64,000 nucleotides of DNA, taken from positions 164,572 to 228,571 of the forward strand of contig JAITFZ010000014.1 in assembly GCA_031280965.1 (NCBI GenBank). The letters run 5' to 3'. This document shows, one piece after another, positions 7,719 through 62,604 of the stretch. Below the pieces are notes generated by a model. It was not told the origin of the DNA. It did no database searches and worked only from the letters and a program-made list of their open reading frames with translations. The position numbers and the translations under genes were made by a program. Every line of letters starts with the position of its first letter. Position 1 is the stretch's first letter. The stretch comes from Oscillospiraceae bacterium. Its GTDB lineage: Bacteria > Bacillota > Clostridia > Oscillospirales > Ruminococcaceae.

Positions 7719-8990
7719 TTATTTATCAATACTTTTTATTAAAGCCTTAAAATGCTCGCCGCGTTCCTCAAAATTTTTGTAAGTATTATAACTTGCGGCG
7801 GCGGGCGAGAGAATACAACAGCGCTTTGTAACCTTTACGGCATAATTCACAGCTTCCTCCATATCCTGTGCGCGATATATGTTAATACTGCCGGTTTCAA
7901 GTGTGTCCGCGACTTTAAAGCCACTGTCGGGCAGGGCTATCAGATTAATTATACCACGATTTTGATTTTTGTCAACTTTTTGTAAAAAATTGGTAAGTTC
8001 TTCGTAATTTATTCCCCTGTCCATGCCGCCGATAATAATTGTATCGGTATCGGGGAAGGCTTCAAGCGCAAAAATCGCCGCCTTTGGAATTGTGCTGATG
8101 CTGTCGTTAATGAATTTTACGCCGTTTATCTCGCCTACGGACTCAAGCCGGTGCGGCAAGCCTTCAAAATTTTGTGCGGCTTTGACCGCCTGCTCTTTGT
8201 CACAGCCAAAGAGAGCGGCGGTTTTAAGCGCGACGGCGATATTGTTATAATTATGCCCGCCGCGTAATTTTGTTGCTTTTGGGTCTAACAGGGCGCGGTA
8301 TTGGTGCAAATCATCATCTTCACCGCGAATCAGTATATCGCCCTCACGCTGATACCTGTAAATGTTTTCCTTCGCCGCACGGTAATCCGCGAAGCTGTTG
8401 TAATGGTCTAAATGCTCCTCGTAAATATTAAGAAGAACCGCGATATGGGGGGAAGCCTGCACGAATTCAAGCTGATGGCAGGACATTTCACAAACCGCCG
8501 TAACAGCAGAGTCAATACCCTCGTCAAGGCGCGAAGACGAGCTTTCATGCAGAGAAATAAACTCAAGCGGCGGAACTCCGATATTCCCAATCAGTACAGC
8601 GTTTTTTCCACAAGATGTCAGAATATGGTAAATCAGCGAAGAAACTGTTGATTTTCCTTTGGTTCCGGTTATGCCGATGATTTTATTTTTTCTGAACCGT
8701 AGCAGTAAATCGGTTTGAGAAGTGATTTTCCTCTTAACAGAATCGGGGATTTCAAGCCCCTTGAAGCTAATTCCGGGCGATTTCATAATAATGTCTGTTT
8801 CGCGGTCATAAAGCGCGTCAAGATAATTTTCGCCTACGTAAAATTTATATGGTAAATTTTTTACGGCTTCGGGGTTTTTATCGGCAACAATGATTTTACA
8901 GGGCAGGTTTTCAAGGATTTTTAAAGTAGATTTTCCCTCCAAGCCTAAGCCGAGGATTAAAACCGTTTTATCTGTAAAGAATTCATTCAT
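7719..8990 (-). CDS. murD: MurD-type ligase, probably MurD2 (adds L-Glu)
   Basis: About 423 residues from the ATG at 8990. An in-frame TTG at 9020 would add ten residues encoded by a repeat element. Mur ligase features: N-terminal Rossmann-like GLGLEGKSTLK, ATP loop GITGTKGKST, then NYNNIAVA and a C-terminal SPAAASYNTYKNFEERG. The glutamate-contact loop reads NDSISTIP, whereas classic D-Glu-adding MurD has DSKATN. With the murL-like gene directly upstream, this fits MurD2, which adds L-Glu to UDP-MurNAc-L-Ala. The ATG overlaps the stop codon of a mini-ORF inside the repeat. Ligase identity is sure; L-Glu preference is inferred. Confidence 0.88.
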   Translation of the reverse strand: MNEFFTDKTVLILGLGLEGKSTLKILENLPCKIIVADKNPEAVKNLPYKFYVGENYLDALYDRETDIIMKSPGISFKGLEIPDSVKRKITSQTDLLLRFRKNKIIGITGTKGKSTVSSLIYHILTSCGKNAVLIGNIGVPPLEFISLHESSSSRLDEGIDSAVTAVCEMSCHQLEFVQASPHIAVLLNIYEEHLDHYNSFADYRAAKENIYRYQREGDILIRGEDDDLHQYRALLDPKATKLRGGHNYNNIAVALKTAALFGCDKEQAVKAAQNFEGLPHRLESVGEINGVKFINDSISTIPKAAIFALEAFPDTDTIIIGGMDRGINYEELTNFLQKVDKNQNRGIINLIALPDSGFKVADTLETGSINIYRAQDMEEAVNYAVKVTKRCCILSPAAASYNTYKNFEERGEHFKALIKSIDK

Positions 8991-8991
8991 T

Positions 8992-9091
8992 TTATTTTCA
9001 TAAAGTCCTTTCTTCACCAACAGAGGACAGCTTCGTTTTAAAACGAAGCGAAAACGACGTTTTCCCCGTTTAAGTTGTGTTTTGTTTCAAC
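8992..9091 (-). repeat. Interspersed repeat, copy 1 (long form, with palindrome)
   Basis: About 100 bases, read on the minus strand from GTTGAAACAAAACACAAC to GACTTTATGAAAATAA. It covers the last codons and stop of murL and reaches the murD start. It contains the 18-base perfect palindrome CTTCGTTTTAAAACGAAG and ends with AAAGGACTTTATG, which sets up a mini-ORF (ATG AAA ATA AAA TGA, 9001 to 8987) overlapping the murD ATG. Other copies are at 23037-23195 (two) and 46552-46651. Confidence 0.85.
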
Positions 9092-10389
9092 CTCAGTAAC
9101 CTTAAAAATTCATCGGGTACGAAGTTGTTTTCATCGAAATATCCGTCGAGAGGAGCGGGGGTTTCGCGTGGGTTTTCGGCGTACTTTTGAAGCAGAAACG
9201 GCAGGTTTTCACGTTTTCTCAACGCTTCTGACAGCGCAAGGTTGATTTCCGCCCTTGTACCCACGCACTCGAAAGGTTTAACTTCGCTCTCATAAGCCAA
9301 ACCATTGAAAATAGTTTCTAATTCGGGGTTGTTGAGCAGGTTTTCATTGAAAACAGCGGTTAGTTTTTCGTCGTTTAAAAACGCCGAAAGCATAATATAA
9401 ACATAAAGACACTTTGCACACTTACAACACCAGGTATTTGTTTTGGAACCGACGTTACAGCTTTGAAAAACACTTAGATATTGCGGAAATTCAATAAACT
9501 TTTTAGTAATCTGCCATTCGCTCAAGGGACGCAAAAAGCTGAAATACTCGGGAAGCCCTGCGCCCGTTTTCACGGTATATTCGCGGAAATCGCGCTCGAA
9601 GTCAATACTTTTACTGTACTGATGATTGACGCCGGTGCTTGTGTTCCCTTCGTTCGCACTGCTTTCGTTCGACAATACGATATACTTTTTTCCTGACAAA
9701 CAGGCAAAAATAAGTGAGGAAAATGCAATTACCGAAGAAAACGGCGTATGACCGTTAAGATAACCGCGTTTATTAAGTTCGAGCAGAGCGGGGTCAATCG
9801 TGCGGGAAACCTTGATAATTTGCGAATCGGCGTAACCTGCGGTTTTCGCGCAGTCCAACGCGCTTTGAATATTTCCGGCAATGTAACAGACGCCGGTTTC
9901 TTTTTGCGCCCTAAGCAGTTCAAGCGTAACCACGCTGTCTTTGCCGCCGCCGACGGGAATTAAGCAACCCGATAAATCAAGCTTTCCCGGCGGACGCAAC
10001 TTCTCGCCTGTTGCATATATTTGCATAAAATCATCATCGGCTTCTATGCTGTTGCGATAGAAAAATTCACCGAGACCGTTCCGGTACAGTTTCTTCCACC
10101 AGTTTATCTGCCATTCGTCAAGCGCTCCGCACCTAACCTCGACAATCGGCGGGCAGACACACTTCCAGTAGCTGATAAGTTCAGCCATGCCGAGATTAAA
10201 AGCTAATAATTCTATATCTGCACCTTTCGTATCAAAATCGAACGTCCATTTAGGTGAAAAGAAAAACTCATCGTCAGAACCGCTCCCCGAAACAGAAAAA
10301 TTAAAATAAATTGTTCCGCCCGATATTCCGTAATCGTGATAGATAAGCCTTTCATGCTTCCTGCGTAATTCGGTATATTTACTATTCAT
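9070..10389 (-). CDS. murL: MurL-type UDP-MurNAc-L-Ala-L-Glu epimerase
   Basis: 439 residues. A PP-loop ATP site (PVGGGKDSVV, GGGKDS at residues 147-152) and later NESSANEGN, NHQYSKSIDFE and a Cys cluster (CNVGSKTNTWCCKCAKC) match MurL, first known from Xanthomonas. There it epimerises the terminal L-Glu of UDP-MurNAc-L-Ala-L-Glu to D-Glu with ATP, giving the normal precursor without glutamate racemase. The gene lies just upstream of a MurD-type ligase with an altered glutamate loop, the expected partner. Its last six codons and stop lie within an interspersed repeat. Family call by motif memory; not verified by search. Confidence 0.82.
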   Translation of the reverse strand: MNSKYTELRRKHERLIYHDYGISGGTIYFNFSVSGSGSDDEFFFSPKWTFDFDTKGADIELLAFNLGMAELISYWKCVCPPIVEVRCGALDEWQINWWKKLYRNGLGEFFYRNSIEADDDFMQIYATGEKLRPPGKLDLSGCLIPVGGGKDSVVTLELLRAQKETGVCYIAGNIQSALDCAKTAGYADSQIIKVSRTIDPALLELNKRGYLNGHTPFSSVIAFSSLIFACLSGKKYIVLSNESSANEGNTSTGVNHQYSKSIDFERDFREYTVKTGAGLPEYFSFLRPLSEWQITKKFIEFPQYLSVFQSCNVGSKTNTWCCKCAKCLYVYIMLSAFLNDEKLTAVFNENLLNNPELETIFNGLAYESEVKPFECVGTRAEINLALSEALRKRENLPFLLQKYAENPRETPAPLDGYFDENNFVPDEFLRLLRLKQNTT

Positions 10390-14010: not shown

Positions 14011-14895
14011 ATGATTAATTATAATAAAATTGAAAAAATATGCAGGAAATACGGTGCGGATTTTGAAATAAACGCGCCGCTTGCGCTGTACACAACCTTT
14101 AAAATCGGCGGACCGTGCGATTTTCTGATTAAAATTAATAATCAAGAGTTAGTTAGCGAGATTGTGAAAAGCGAAATCCCTTTTCGCATACTCGGAAACG
14201 GCAGTAACGTGTTAGTGAAAGACGAGGGAATACGAGGTGCGGTATTGCTGTTCGGTCGGGATTTCGCAAATGTTTTCACAGACAACGAAAATGCTTACTG
14301 TGAAGCGGGTGCGAACCTGACAAGCGTTTGTCATACGATGCGGGACGCTTCGCTGACAGGTTTAGAGTTCGCTTACGGTATTCCCGGAACAGTCGGAGGC
14401 GCGGTTTATATGAACGCGGGAGCCTATGACGGCGAAATCTCAAATGTTTTGGTTTACGCAGAATACATTGATGAAGACGGCGTAATAAAAAGGCTTAACG
14501 AAGGCTTTTCTTATAGGAAAAGCTCGTTTATGAGTGCAAAAAGAGTAATAACAAGCGCGAGTTTTAAACTGCAAAAAGGCGATAAAGCGCAAATTGCCGC
14601 GAAAATGGAAGATTTCATGAATCGGCGCAGGGATAAGCAACCGCTTGAATTCCCGAGTGCGGGCAGTACGTTTAAAAGACCGGAAGGCGACTATGCGTCA
14701 AGATTAATTGACGTGTGCGGCTTGAAAGGTTTTTCTGTCGGCGGCGCGCAGGTAAGCGAGAAACATGCAGGCTTTATTATCAACAAAGGCAACGCAACCT
14801 GTAAAGATGTATTGAAACTCACAGAAGCGGTGAAAGAGCGGGTTTTCAAGGAAACAGGATTCATGCTTGAACGGGAAGTTGAGGTGCTTGGATAA
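14011..14895 (+). CDS. murB: UDP-N-acetylenolpyruvoylglucosamine reductase
   Basis: 294 residues, the short Gram-positive type. It reduces the enolpyruvyl group made by MurA to UDP-MurNAc using FAD and NADPH. FAD-binding stretches ILGNGSNVLVKDEG and FAYGIPGTVGGAVYMNAGAY are clear, as are the catalytic Arg (YRKSSF) and Ser (SAGSTFKRP); the catalytic Glu is probably in the final EREVEV. It ends 2 bases before rapZ. hprK-murB-rapZ is a common order in Clostridia. Confidence 0.97.
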   Translation: MINYNKIEKICRKYGADFEINAPLALYTTFKIGGPCDFLIKINNQELVSEIVKSEIPFRILGNGSNVLVKDEGIRGAVLLFGRDFANVFTDNENAYCEAGANLTSVCHTMRDASLTGLEFAYGIPGTVGGAVYMNAGAYDGEISNVLVYAEYIDEDGVIKRLNEGFSYRKSSFMSAKRVITSASFKLQKGDKAQIAAKMEDFMNRRRDKQPLEFPSAGSTFKRPEGDYASRLIDVCGLKGFSVGGAQVSEKHAGFIINKGNATCKDVLKLTEAVKERVFKETGFMLEREVEVLG

Positions 14896-23036: not shown

Positions 23037-23195
23037 TATTTTCATAAAGTCCTTTCTTAACCAATGAGGGATGAAAATAACGTTTTCCCCGTTTCGGTTG
23101 TATTTTGTTTCAAACTTATTTTCATAAAGTCCTTTCTTAACCAATCAGGGATGAAAATAACCTTTTCCCCGTTTCGGTTGTGTTTTGTTTCAACC
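23037..23195 (-). repeat. Interspersed repeat, copies 2 and 3 in tandem (short form)
   Basis: Two units of about 79 bases at 23037-23115 and 23117-23195, period 80, nearly identical. Read on the minus strand each runs from GTTTGAAACAAAA or GGTTGAAACAAAA through CGAAACGGGGAAAA to AAGAAAGGACTTTATGAAAAT. They lack the central palindrome found in the copies at 8992 and 46552. They lie 100 bases upstream of the CheC-like gene, in the same orientation. The rest of 22937-23293 holds A/T-rich DNA and the promoter at 23231. Confidence 0.85.
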
Positions 23196-37503: not shown

Positions 37504-38262
37504 TTATGAAAGCAAACAGCTCTTTATGATGTCGCAGAGCGCTTTTGACTGGTCGTTAACGCCGGCTTTTCTGATAAGTGCGCGAAGCAGTAATACCGCG
37601 CTTTCCTCATCAAGATTAGCAATCGCTTTTTGAAGTTTTGGTGTTTTTTCAATGGAAATCTGCATTAAGATTTCATCGTTTGCTTTAGGTGTTCTCGGTG
37701 CTTTTGCTACCGGCGCTTTCGGTGCTTTTGCCACCGGCGCTTTCACGGTTGAAGCGGGTTTGCGCCCTCTTTTCTTAGGTTCTGCAACTTCGGTCGGAAT
37801 AGCCTTAACAGCGGGTTTGCGTCCTCTTTTCTTAGGTTCGGCAACTTCAACCGGAACAGCCTTAACAGCGGGTTTTCTGCCGGGCTTTTTCGCGGGTTTT
37901 GAATCAACGGCAACTTTGGCTTTTGCAGGTGCTTTTTTCGCGGAAGCAACAAGTTTTTTGTCGTTTAAAAAGCTTTTTAATAATTCTTCGCTGAATTCGC
38001 CCTTTTCGTCAGCTTCGCCCGTATAATAATACGGTGAAACGCCGAGTAACTGCGCCATTGAAAGAACCATTTTTGGGGAAGCCGAGCCTTTTTGAAACGC
38101 ATTGTAAAACGTTGCGCGATTAAGTCCAGAGAGTTCGGTGATTTTTTTCTTGATGTCGGCGGAAGCGGTTTTAAAACCTTCCGAAATTCTGTCTTTTGAT
38201 TTTTGTGCGTCGATGCTTAAATTAGTTTTTTTAAGACCTTCAATTTGCTTTGCGGTTAACAT
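37504..38262 (-). CDS. HTH protein with AT-hook repeats (histone-like tail)
   Basis: 252 residues. Residues 1-85 contain an XRE-like helix-turn-helix (ITELSGLNRATFYNAFQKG, then MVLSMAQLLGVSPYYYTGE). The middle is Lys/Ala/Pro-rich, with three AT-hook cores KKPGRKPA, KKRGRKPA and KKRGRKPA set in 19-residue repeats, followed by KAPVAKAPKAPVAKAP. The C-terminus (about 200-252) is a compact helical domain. A DNA-binding nucleoid or regulatory protein is likely, combining sequence reading and minor-groove binding. A strong promoter suggests high expression. Confidence 0.8.
   Translation of the reverse strand: MLTAKQIEGLKKTNLSIDAQKSKDRISEGFKTASADIKKKITELSGLNRATFYNAFQKGSASPKMVLSMAQLLGVSPYYYTGEADEKGEFSEELLKSFLNDKKLVASAKKAPAKAKVAVDSKPAKKPGRKPAVKAVPVEVAEPKKRGRKPAVKAIPTEVAEPKKRGRKPASTVKAPVAKAPKAPVAKAPRTPKANDEILMQISIEKTPKLQKAIANLDEESAVLLLRALIRKAGVNDQSKALCDIIKSCLLS
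37754..37885. repeat. 57-bp tandem repeat encoding AT-hooks
   Basis: Two full units (37754-37810, 37811-37867) and a partial third, in frame; each encodes one GRKPA hook plus spacer. Differences between units are few, pointing to recent duplication. Confidence 0.85.
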
Positions 38263-46516: not shown

Positions 46517-46551
46517 TTAACAGGTAATAAGGAATAATGAAGGGGAAATAA

Positions 46552-46651
46552 GTTTGAAACAAAATACAACTGAAATGGGGAAAATGTTGTTTTCACTTCG
46601 TTTTAAAACGAAGCTATCCTCTGTTGGCGAAGAAAGGACTTTATGAAAATA
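46552..46651 (+). repeat. Interspersed repeat, copy 4 (long form, with palindrome)
   Basis: About 100 bases, from GTTTGAAACAAAATACAACTG to GACTTTATGAAAATA, with the 18-base palindrome CTTCGTTTTAAAACGAAG in the middle. It ends in AAAGGACTTTATG, giving a mini-ORF ATG AAA ATA TGA (46643-46654) whose stop overlaps the ATG of the S41-like gene at 46651. It shares this layout with the copy at 8992-9091. Confidence 0.88.
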
Positions 46652-47871
46652 TGAACAAAAAATTTTCGCTCGGCGTTTGCATAAGCTTAATCGCTGTCGC
46701 TTGCGCCGTAACATTTGTGTTGACAATGAGCCTTTCGCTTGACATCTATAACCAAAGAATCGCAGGCGTCGGAGAGCGCGAGGCGATTTACGCAAAATTG
46801 CAGGACATCGACTCTTATGTCAGGAACAACTTTTTTGAAACAATTGACGAAGACAGGCTTGCCGCCGGCATAATGAGCGGCTATATGTCAGGACTCGGCG
46901 ATAATAAAAGCAGATACATACCCGATTTAGAGTTTTATGAGTTATCCCAGTATATGAAAGGGCGTATAATTACCACGGGTGTTCAGGTTGTGCGTAATGA
47001 AGACGGGTATATCAGAATAACTGATGTTTACGATGGTTCATCGGCAAAGATTCAAGGAGTTGAGGTTGGCGATATTATTACGCATATTAATAATATACAG
47101 GTGCTTGAACTCGGCGCCGAGAACGCAATAAAGCTTCTTTCTGTTGACGAAAGTGCGCGTGTTAATATAACAATTCAGCGCGACGGCGAAGAACAGCGAT
47201 TCAGCTTAATACGCCAGGAAATAGATTTGTTAACAGTCAGGGGGATTATGCACGAAGACATCGGATTTATCAGAATCAGCGGTTTTGCCGAAAACACGGG
47301 CAACCAGTTCGATATGATTATTGACGAAATGCTTGCAAATGATATAAAAGGGTTGATAATAGACGTGAGAGGGCTGAGCGGGTGCATGATTGCGCCGCAA
47401 AGACAGATTCTCGACAGGCTTCTGCCGCGTTCGGCGGCGGCTGTGGCGGAATACAGGAACGGAAGTATTAATACTATTATAGAAATAACAAGCGATTCGG
47501 ATATCAGTCTGCCGATTACACTAATAGCCGACGGAAGCACGGCAGAGGGCGGCGAACTTTTTGCGGCGGCGCTGAAAGATTTTGCGGCGGCGCAGATTGT
47601 CGGCACTCCCACAAAGGGAGACCCGGTCTTTACAACAATACGATTGCTCGGCGACGGGAGCGCGGTGCTGCTTTCAAACATGAAAGTGCGTTCGGGCGGA
47701 GGGACGAGTTTTGACGGCGAGGGAATAAGACCGGACTTTTTTATAGAACTCGCAACACCGGCAGATACTGACTTGGATAACCTTGAATACACGCTCGACC
47801 TGCAAATCAGAAAGGCGTTTGAGGTTACCGAAGCAAGAATATCACAAATAACAATACAGGAGGAACAATAA
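46651..47871 (+). CDS. S41 (CtpA)-like protein with PDZ domain, probably inactive
   Basis: 406 residues from the ATG at 46651; a TTG at 46624 in frame would add nine residues encoded by the repeat. N-terminal membrane helix (GVCISLIAVACAVTFVLTMS), PDZ domain at about 105-195 (SSAKIQGVEVGDIITHIN), then the S41 core. Where active members have GSASASE the sequence reads DGSTAEGGELFA near residue 295, and the GKG lysine site reads PTKGDPVF, so both Ser and Lys of the dyad seem lost. Likely a cell-wall scaffold next to FtsEX rather than a protease. Fold sure; inactivity from hand alignment. Confidence 0.85.
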   Translation: MNKKFSLGVCISLIAVACAVTFVLTMSLSLDIYNQRIAGVGEREAIYAKLQDIDSYVRNNFFETIDEDRLAAGIMSGYMSGLGDNKSRYIPDLEFYELSQYMKGRIITTGVQVVRNEDGYIRITDVYDGSSAKIQGVEVGDIITHINNIQVLELGAENAIKLLSVDESARVNITIQRDGEEQRFSLIRQEIDLLTVRGIMHEDIGFIRISGFAENTGNQFDMIIDEMLANDIKGLIIDVRGLSGCMIAPQRQILDRLLPRSAAAVAEYRNGSINTIIEITSDSDISLPITLIADGSTAEGGELFAAALKDFAAAQIVGTPTKGDPVFTTIRLLGDGSAVLLSNMKVRSGGGTSFDGEGIRPDFFIELATPADTDLDNLEYTLDLQIRKAFEVTEARISQITIQEEQ

Positions 47872-62286: not shown

Positions 62287-62329
62287 AATGTTACCGGATT
62301 CGGTTACATTTAATCTCACGGAATTCCGT
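62287..62329. promoter_or_regulatory. Two operator-like inverted repeats upstream of the ATPase operon
   Basis: AATGTTACCG-GATT-CGGTTACATT (62287-62310, one mismatch) and the perfect palindrome ACGGAATTCCGT (62318-62329). They lie just before the start of the frameshifted gene and could bind a regulator. Confidence 0.45.
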
Positions 62330-62604
62330 TAGTTTAAATTTATTCTATCATAAAATCTCGAATTTGTCAACGAAACCCATTTATGGGTTCACGGCAACAG
62401 CATTTTAAAAAGTCCCAAAATTACTTCCTGCAACTTTAAAGTATTAAGAGCGGCAATAAACATCTTCTTTTTTAATCCCGATACGCCCCCAATTGACGGA
62501 TTATAATAGGCTAAAAGCCACTTTGCGTAAAACATTCATATTATTAACCCGCAACAAAGAAAACCTAATTTGAAGATTGTTGATTAACGCAAGGAGGTGA
62601 AATC
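62330..62604. other. Intergenic stretch without a gene
   Basis: A/T-rich. A short hairpin GAAACCCAT/ATGGGTTC at about 62376-62394 is the only structure seen; no convincing promoter or open frame with a ribosome binding site. Confidence 0.5.

Follow-up and report, generated by a model that had tools for sequence, protein, structure and literature searches.

Small interspersed repeats with their own Shine-Dalgarno sequence lie between the native Shine-Dalgarno sequence and the start codon of genes in an Oscillospiraceae genome

The DNA analysed here, referred to as the window, is a 64-kb stretch of the genome of an Oscillospiraceae bacterium (genome G000, 36 contigs, 2.01 Mb; the window is C20:164572-228571). 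Four copies of one repeated element lie in it, within a base or two of the positions given in an initial annotation. Two are long copies placed directly before murD and before an S41 peptidase gene, and two are short copies that form a tandem pair. The features are as follows (SD, Shine-Dalgarno sequence).

7719..8990, minus strand: murD, whose start is adjoined by the element (Mur_ligase_M above cut-off; MurD-like_N and Mur_ligase_C below)
8987..9001, minus strand: mini-ORF ATG AAA ATA AAA TGA, whose TGA overlaps the murD ATG at 8990
8992..9092, minus strand: long-type copy of subfamily B (5' end GGTTGAAAC; 3' end GAAAATAA followed by 1 nt and ATG), between murL and murD
9006..9014, minus strand: own SD, AAGAAAGGA, of the murD-side copy
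9070..10389, minus strand: murL-like ORF upstream of the element (DUF6395, weak, below cut-off)
23038..23115, minus strand: short-type copy, downstream member of the tandem pair, followed by ATGAACAAATAA and no gene (an exception)
23116..23195, minus strand: short-type copy, upstream member of the tandem pair
46540..46546, plus strand: native SD-like stretch AAGGGGA 5' of the S41-side element (by eye)
46552..46650, plus strand: long-type copy of subfamily A, between an ftsX-like gene and the S41/PDZ peptidase gene
46630..46638, plus strand: own SD, AAGAAAGGA, of the S41-side copy
46643..46654, plus strand: mini-ORF ATG AAA ATA TGA, overlapping the ATG of the S41 gene
46651..47871, plus strand: S41 peptidase gene (Peptidase_S41, E 1.3e-24; PDZ)

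Both mini-ORFs read as first annotated, and so does the end of the murL-like ORF, whose final residues and stop codon are now supplied by the element (C-terminus ...LRLKQNTT*). All copies had also been described as oriented with the gene downstream. One correction concerns the tandem pair, which points to cheC without adjoining it: ATG AAC AAA TAA follows the pair and the cheC start lies about 100 nt further on. The 16-nt core of the element, AAGAAAGGACTTTATG, has 4 exact sites in the window; at no more than 3 mismatches, 5 window sites were found compared to a mean of 0.81 in 100 shuffles. A scan of the window against Rfam gave only a tRNA above the gathering score. Elsewhere in the window, a 57-nt direct duplication (37753-37866, 89% identical) lies inside the ORF 37504-38262 on the minus strand, and an AT-rich imperfect palindrome of about 38 nt, with overlapping arms that are 88% complementary, occupies positions 62305-62342.

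Across the whole of G000, the 20-nt motif at the 3' end of the element, AAGAAAGGACTTTATGAAAA, gave 134 matches at no more than 3 mismatches (70 forward and 64 reverse), and a control with the reversed pattern gave none. Two lengths of copy are present: the short type has 79 nt, and the long type, into which an extra palindrome, GCTTCGTTTTAAAACGAAGC, is inserted, has about 100 nt. By their 5' ends, GTTTGAAACAAAAT and GGTTGAAACAAAAC, they fall into two subfamilies that largely match the loci with a gene ATG at +8 and at +11, respectively (see below). Head-to-tail tandem arrays with a period of 80-81 nt are common in G000. With members of about 57-103 nt, many dispersed similar copies and a patchy distribution among relatives, the element constitutes a small interspersed repeat family.

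The placement of copies was analysed for 116 of the 134 motif copies, within 316 kb of sequence around them. Removal of the 24 copies followed by another copy (15 by rule, 9 by eye) left 92 3'-terminal loci, and 85 of these adjoin, in the sense orientation, the start of an ORF of at least 60 aa; one of the 85 is doubtful (C32:1950), its ORF reading through a terminator-like hairpin. The next ATG after the element's own ATG was found at +8 in 66 loci, at +11 in 13, at +12 in 2 and at +9 in 1. No ATG is present at +8 to +12 in the other 10 loci; in 6 of them the long ORF begins at the element's own ATG, aroQ and rdgB being among the loci of this kind. Two of the seven exceptions lie by an ATG that does not open a gene (C20:96500 and C20:187629, the latter being the tandem pair at 23 kb of the window), one is without a start codon (C16:31030) and the remaining four (C13:40931, C2:17241, C20:9779 and C5:8524) open only 6-44 codons. 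The proposal that the repeat is co-oriented with genes and supplies their start signals is thus supported in the genome as a whole, orientation and distance to start codons being far from random. Chance rates of gene-start placement were taken from the window, with a gene list drawn up by hand from ORFs: a random intergenic point, taken with a random orientation, meets a gene start in 2% of cases, and gene starts account for 46 of 197 ATGs and 6 of 20 YATGAA sites in non-coding sequence. The observed 85 of 92 is above all three (binomial tails 7e-135, 3e-45 and 3e-36, respectively).

The bases around the insertion point are biased as well. In the +8 set, the fourth base of the gene is A in 58 of 66 cases compared to 43% of 97 element-free genes (p 5e-9), and the fifth base is A in 54 of 66 compared to 40% (p 2e-7). 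On the other side, AA precedes the G of the element in 49 of 61 copies, compared to AA before the ATG in 7 of 32 control genes. Both a target preference and microhomology at ATGAA fit these biases, and a YATGAA preference combined with the loss of insertions in coding sequence could explain some of the start-codon bias. Selection might even account for the placement by itself: insertion of an ordinary small transposable repeat would be fairly random, with a loose preference for YATGAA, and copies in start regions would persist as their own SD rescues the gene. The ATGAA preference of the +8 subfamily is in line with such a filter, as is the SD being the best conserved block of the element. We find this account rather doubtful. 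Among the non-coding YATGAA sites of the window, those outside gene starts outnumber those at gene starts by 14 to 6, whereas gene starts hold 85 of 92 insertions; in the +11 subfamily (13 loci) the ATGAA bias is lacking (A at base 4 in 6 of 13), and 12 of 13 still open an ORF of at least 60 aa; and old copies would be expected in neutral intergenic space.

The sequence displaced by the element was assessed in the 61 single copies with a clear 5' end, by scoring the 20 nt outside the element for their dG of pairing to the anti-SD. In all SD scoring we took the anti-SD to be the standard clostridial 16S tail; the 16S 3' tail was not found in the 9 genomes (MAGs) searched. The native 5' flanks have a mean dG of -6.9 kcal/mol and 82% are at or below -4, compared to -2.4 kcal/mol and 24% for random 20-mers and -4.4 and 53% for shuffled flanks; the SD of 32 element-free window genes gave -7.7 kcal/mol and 84%. 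Part of the flank signal reflects base composition, since shuffled flanks already reach 53% at this threshold. In the 61 copies the element most often lies 4-7 nt from the SD, and the distance from SD to ATG is 2-11 nt (mostly 4-9) in the 32 control genes, with a peak at 5-6 in the 97 element-free genes. As the strength and spacing of the flanking SD are close to those of element-free genes, the element occupies the native spacer between SD and start codon.

Inside the element, the best conserved block is its own SD, AAGAAAGG(A), with identities of 97-100% except for one base at 90% in 59 short copies and of 93-100% in 27 long copies, the copies coming from stretches fetched mainly by the 3' motif, which favours this block. 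An SD about 12-14 nt before the start codon is the feature common to the families described below, unlike the mini-ORF. In our view, it is probable that small mobile non-coding repeats enter translation-initiation regions and swap in their own SD, so that the insertion is tolerated. Located in the sense orientation between the native SD and the start codon, the element pushes the former away and would substitute its own (AAGAAAGGA or variants). The gene would stay translatable, and insertion even into usually essential genes would be tolerated because the SD of the element presumably now serves for initiation. At murL-murD and remA-gmk, which are junctions of overlapping genes in relatives, the element also gives the upstream gene a stop codon. 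A spacing of 12-14 nt between this SD and the gene is longer than usual, which counts against this reading.

Insertion at gene starts can be seen by comparing empty and filled orthologous junctions. The murL-murD junction is compact in G012, G017, G023 and G080, where murL runs into the murD start, and is filled in G000 and G027, with the element exactly at the junction; in G006 it holds a member of that genome's own family. At the second junction, remA overlaps gmk in G023 and G027, and an element lies before the gmk start in G000 (long type), G012 (short type), G017 (its own version) and G020 (diverged). None was recognised there by eye in G070, G080, G021, G071, G085, G010 and G006, and G003 gave no match in the remA-gmk comparison. 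The sets of filled genomes differ between the two junctions, which points to separate insertions at the same place. In G000 the element provides the stop codon of the upstream gene at both. At murD, the native target CTGAAATGA, reconstructed from relatives, is interrupted without duplication; elsewhere the flanking AA/ATG letters are ambiguous. Other candidate insert-like sequences were seen upstream of murD in G071 (L135, with hairpin arms GTTTGAATAAAAGC...GCTTTTATTC) and in G065 (L136), and may be further relatives of the family.

The spread of the family was determined with a sequence-only model of 32 members, run on 71 genomes of the same genus with 66 candidates scored per genome. Matches were found in 15 of the 71, with at least 33 in seven of them (G000, G006, G012, G020, G027, G070 and G085). 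A further version, missed by this model, is present in G017 (17 matches to its own query). Close members occur in G012 and G027 and divergent members in five further species (G006, G020, G070, G085 and G017), and the same placement recurs in these seven relatives, including the five with divergent sequences. In G012, 33 copies carry the exact motif, of which 2 are at an edge, 2 are in tandem and 29 are classifiable; the ATG is at +8 in 28 of the 29 and at +9 in one, and a single +8 ATG (L258) opens only 26 codons. The 57 exact-motif copies of G027 comprise 24 with an ATG at +8, 15 at +12, 6 in tandem, 6 without an ATG and 6 at other offsets; an ORF of at least 50 codons, or one running off the stretch, follows in 23 of the 24 and 14 of the 15. 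For G006, G070, G085 and G020, places were picked from the listed best matches, and 54 of 61 matches were kept, seven weak partial fragments being left out. Another copy follows in 14 of the 54, and an ORF starts within 18 nt in 37 of the 40 others, 35 of these starts lying within -2 to +4 nt. In G017, where 14 of the 17 matches were inspected by eye, 13 elements were recognised, two places being halves of one, and 12 of the 13 precede an ATG within a few nt (L365 is without a close ATG). Two G017 places (L360 and L364) hold extra sequence between two parts, sharing ...ACGACCGTAATTT(G/A)GCT(G/A)CGC, apparently a nested or composite form, and a separate repeat (GGGGCG..CCTTGCGGTCGCCC-like) lies near several elements of this genome (L361, L367 and L359). 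Outside the genus, the repeat was found in none of 24 order-level genomes; beyond two Oscillospiraceae MAGs, a scan of named genomes gave, among the matches listed, 5 single matches without the 5' half.

These comparisons bear on the function first proposed for the repeat, that of a translation-coupling module in which the mini-ORF ATG-AAA-ATA-TGA captures ribosomes and passes them to the gene through the ATGA overlap. The arrangement is frequent: the mini start is ATG at 78 of the 92 loci and GTG at 4, the TGA overlaps the gene ATG at 54 of 92, and the +8 geometry prevails among the classifiable G012 copies. Other observations count against the module. All 10 loci without a mini start codon keep an ORF of at least 60 aa, and within the 3' motif the G of the mini-ATG belongs to the more variable positions. 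The ATGAA preference also accounts for part of the ATGA overlap. Relatives often lack the mini-ORF or have it out of register: the +12 ATG of the 15 G027 copies shares the frame of the mini-ATG, and the spacer of several G006 copies contains no ATG. The overlap described in the initial annotation is thus real and common, but coupling as the function of the repeat seems unlikely.

The genes behind the element are diverse. From the 85 loci, 29 downstream proteins were chosen and scanned. Twenty were named with NCBIfam (glmU, dnaB, hpt, nadC, dxr, pyrH, rsmG, rpe, hisZ, gmk, coaD, lysA, gpmI, aroQ, rdgB, lysC, pfkA, galU, pheT and metF, with hisZ, lysA and galU below the curated cut-offs), and matches of the other nine in PHROGs include a phage minor head protein, a holin and two integrases. 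The suggested tie to cell-wall operons is not maintained in a set that includes dnaB, dxr, pyrH, gmk, coaD, pheT, pfkA and phage-like genes besides glmU, and without a common theme among the 29, the downstream genes do not look like a regulon of shared function. This also weighs against a spreading regulatory leader, that is, an RNA switch whose middle strand would pair with either the 5' strand or the SD and place many genes under one signal.

Structure predictions are divided on such a switch. RNAalifold proposes, for alignment A2, that the middle strand may pair with the SD strand, and the minimum-energy fold of L033 buries the SD and the mini-ATG. The element is clearly structured in some species: one G006 member (L152) folds better than shuffles (z -4.0), and five G017 members reach z-scores of -3.4 to -6.4. 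All five form a strong first hairpin, and three form a second hairpin before a free SD; the pairing of this second hairpin is kept with different letters in these three copies (by eye). On the other hand, z-scores are -1.3 in G070, -1.4 in G085, and -0.3 and -0.6 in G027, and two G000 members fold no better than shuffles (0.0 and -0.05). No covariation was found among 57 short copies of G000; alignment A1 gave no structure as a whole and no compensatory changes, and none of the 9 pairs of alignment A2 shows a two-sided change. A conserved RNA switch within G000 was rejected on the basis of the missing covariation and the folds of its two members, and we regard a regulatory leader as quite improbable for the family.

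A further idea is that the folded RNA element is bypassed or cut out, the native SD still serving the native start codon as in the split sites of phage T4 genes 38 and 25, a precedent described in the part of PMC3014915 available. The strength of the G017 hairpins fits this idea. With increasing divergence of the element, the native SD is not significantly weakened (Spearman rho -0.07, p 0.57, n 64), as the idea would have it, in a test of little power (81%, 90% and 64% at dG of -4 or below from the least to the most diverged third of elements). When both G017 hairpins are folded, the start codon is still preceded by about 20 unpaired nt; moreover, the element's own SD is strongly conserved, and tandem arrays of 2-3 copies occur, some with a further fragment. 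A bypass therefore appears very improbable.

Several observations indicate that the repeat is mobile, namely near-identical copies at different loci in G012, copies in viral contigs and copies before phage-like genes. Five viral contigs were matched, two of which hold a real copy, the other three lacking the 5' half. In the tailed-phage contig L267 (IMG/VR UViG 3300010167_000078), a G027-like copy lies before a gene start at about 14280-14367, with an SD-like stretch just upstream; this contig also carries two Ant/Rha-type anti-repressor genes. The copy in L268 (IMG/VR UViG 2820453354_000002) and its surroundings are identical to L251 from G027, and L268 is probably a provirus call within that genome. 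The repeat has thus entered phage-like DNA. By eye, the element has none of the terminal inverted repeats that mark a MITE (a non-autonomous transposon of the DDE type), its ends AAGTTTGAAAC (5') and ATGAAAAT (3') not being complementary, and its inverted repeats are internal. REP/RAYT and other palindromic elements derived from IS200/IS605 share hairpins, the lack of terminal inverted repeats and one orientation to the target. Their Y1 mobiliser is, however, absent from eight of the nine element-bearing genomes: the Y1 transposase (PF01797) gave no match in G000, G006, G012, G017, G027, G070, G080 and G085 and one weak match in G020, several of the nine MAGs being 71-91% complete. A reverse transcriptase (PF00078) was likewise rejected as mobiliser, being found in three of the nine only (G000, G012 and G017) and not in G006, G020, G027, G070, G080 and G085.

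That repeats enter initiation regions and are tolerated through their own SD is the reading we favour; whether insertion itself is directed to start regions, beyond selective filtering, is a less certain part of it. Tentatively, the family may represent a new class of mobile element, a 'start-codon homing' repeat that would recognise the SD and start codon, or the initiating mRNA, and whose replacement SD would allow essential genes to be colonised. Directed insertion would imply an activity able to distinguish a start codon from other ATGs. Should selection alone be at work, the copies are a natural experiment with dozens to more than 100 replaced ribosome-binding sites per genome in several species, which would make SD strength, spacing and coupling testable. 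In either case start-site annotation is disturbed, since a copy can give rise to mini-ORFs, N-terminal fusions and changed stop codons of upstream genes.

The following comparisons rest on the parts of the cited articles that were available. The pneumococcal BOX, RUP and SPRITE sequences (PMC3049150) are likewise small interspersed repeats regarded as mobile, parasitic entities. They are over-represented between convergent genes, a place where a small bacterial repeat does the least damage, whereas the element described here does the opposite. Nearly all of its copies are at start codons, in the few bases where a gene is most sensitive, usually essential genes included, and it apparently persists by replacing what it displaces. 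ERIC/IRU and other small mobile sequences of enterobacteria (PMC2229807) resemble it in being non-autonomous and co-transcribed, with orientation-dependent effects on mRNA. They are called MITE-like, and no start-codon rule is given, the terms 'start codon' and 'Shine' having 0 occurrences in the available text. The split ribosome-binding sites of T4 genes 38 and 25 (PMC3014915) also have RNA structure between SD and start codon, but these leaders are native, with SD and AUG 22 and 27 nt apart, and mobility or a second SD is unmentioned in the available part. In a literature search that ran outside bioRxiv and most subscription journals, with sources available in part, no earlier report of repeats between SD and start codon was recognised. 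The nearest printed case found is that of the TAACTGA direct repeats (PMC4679880), known from Beggiatoaceae, Cyanobacteria and Bacteroidetes and located upstream of start codons in Beggiatoaceae. Like the present element, they are numerous in a genome, for the most part co-oriented and within a few nt of the start codon that follows, and show no clear common gene function and no evident mechanism of transmission. The heptamer itself was found once in 11 of 85 G000 copies and twice or more in none, so that these copies are not direct repeats of this kind. The TAACTGA repeats have a 7-nt unit in short tandem sets that overlap the expected ribosome-binding site and have little SD character; the element described here, in contrast, is 57-103 nt long, leaves the native SD preserved on its 5' side, ahead of the start codon, and brings an SD of its own.
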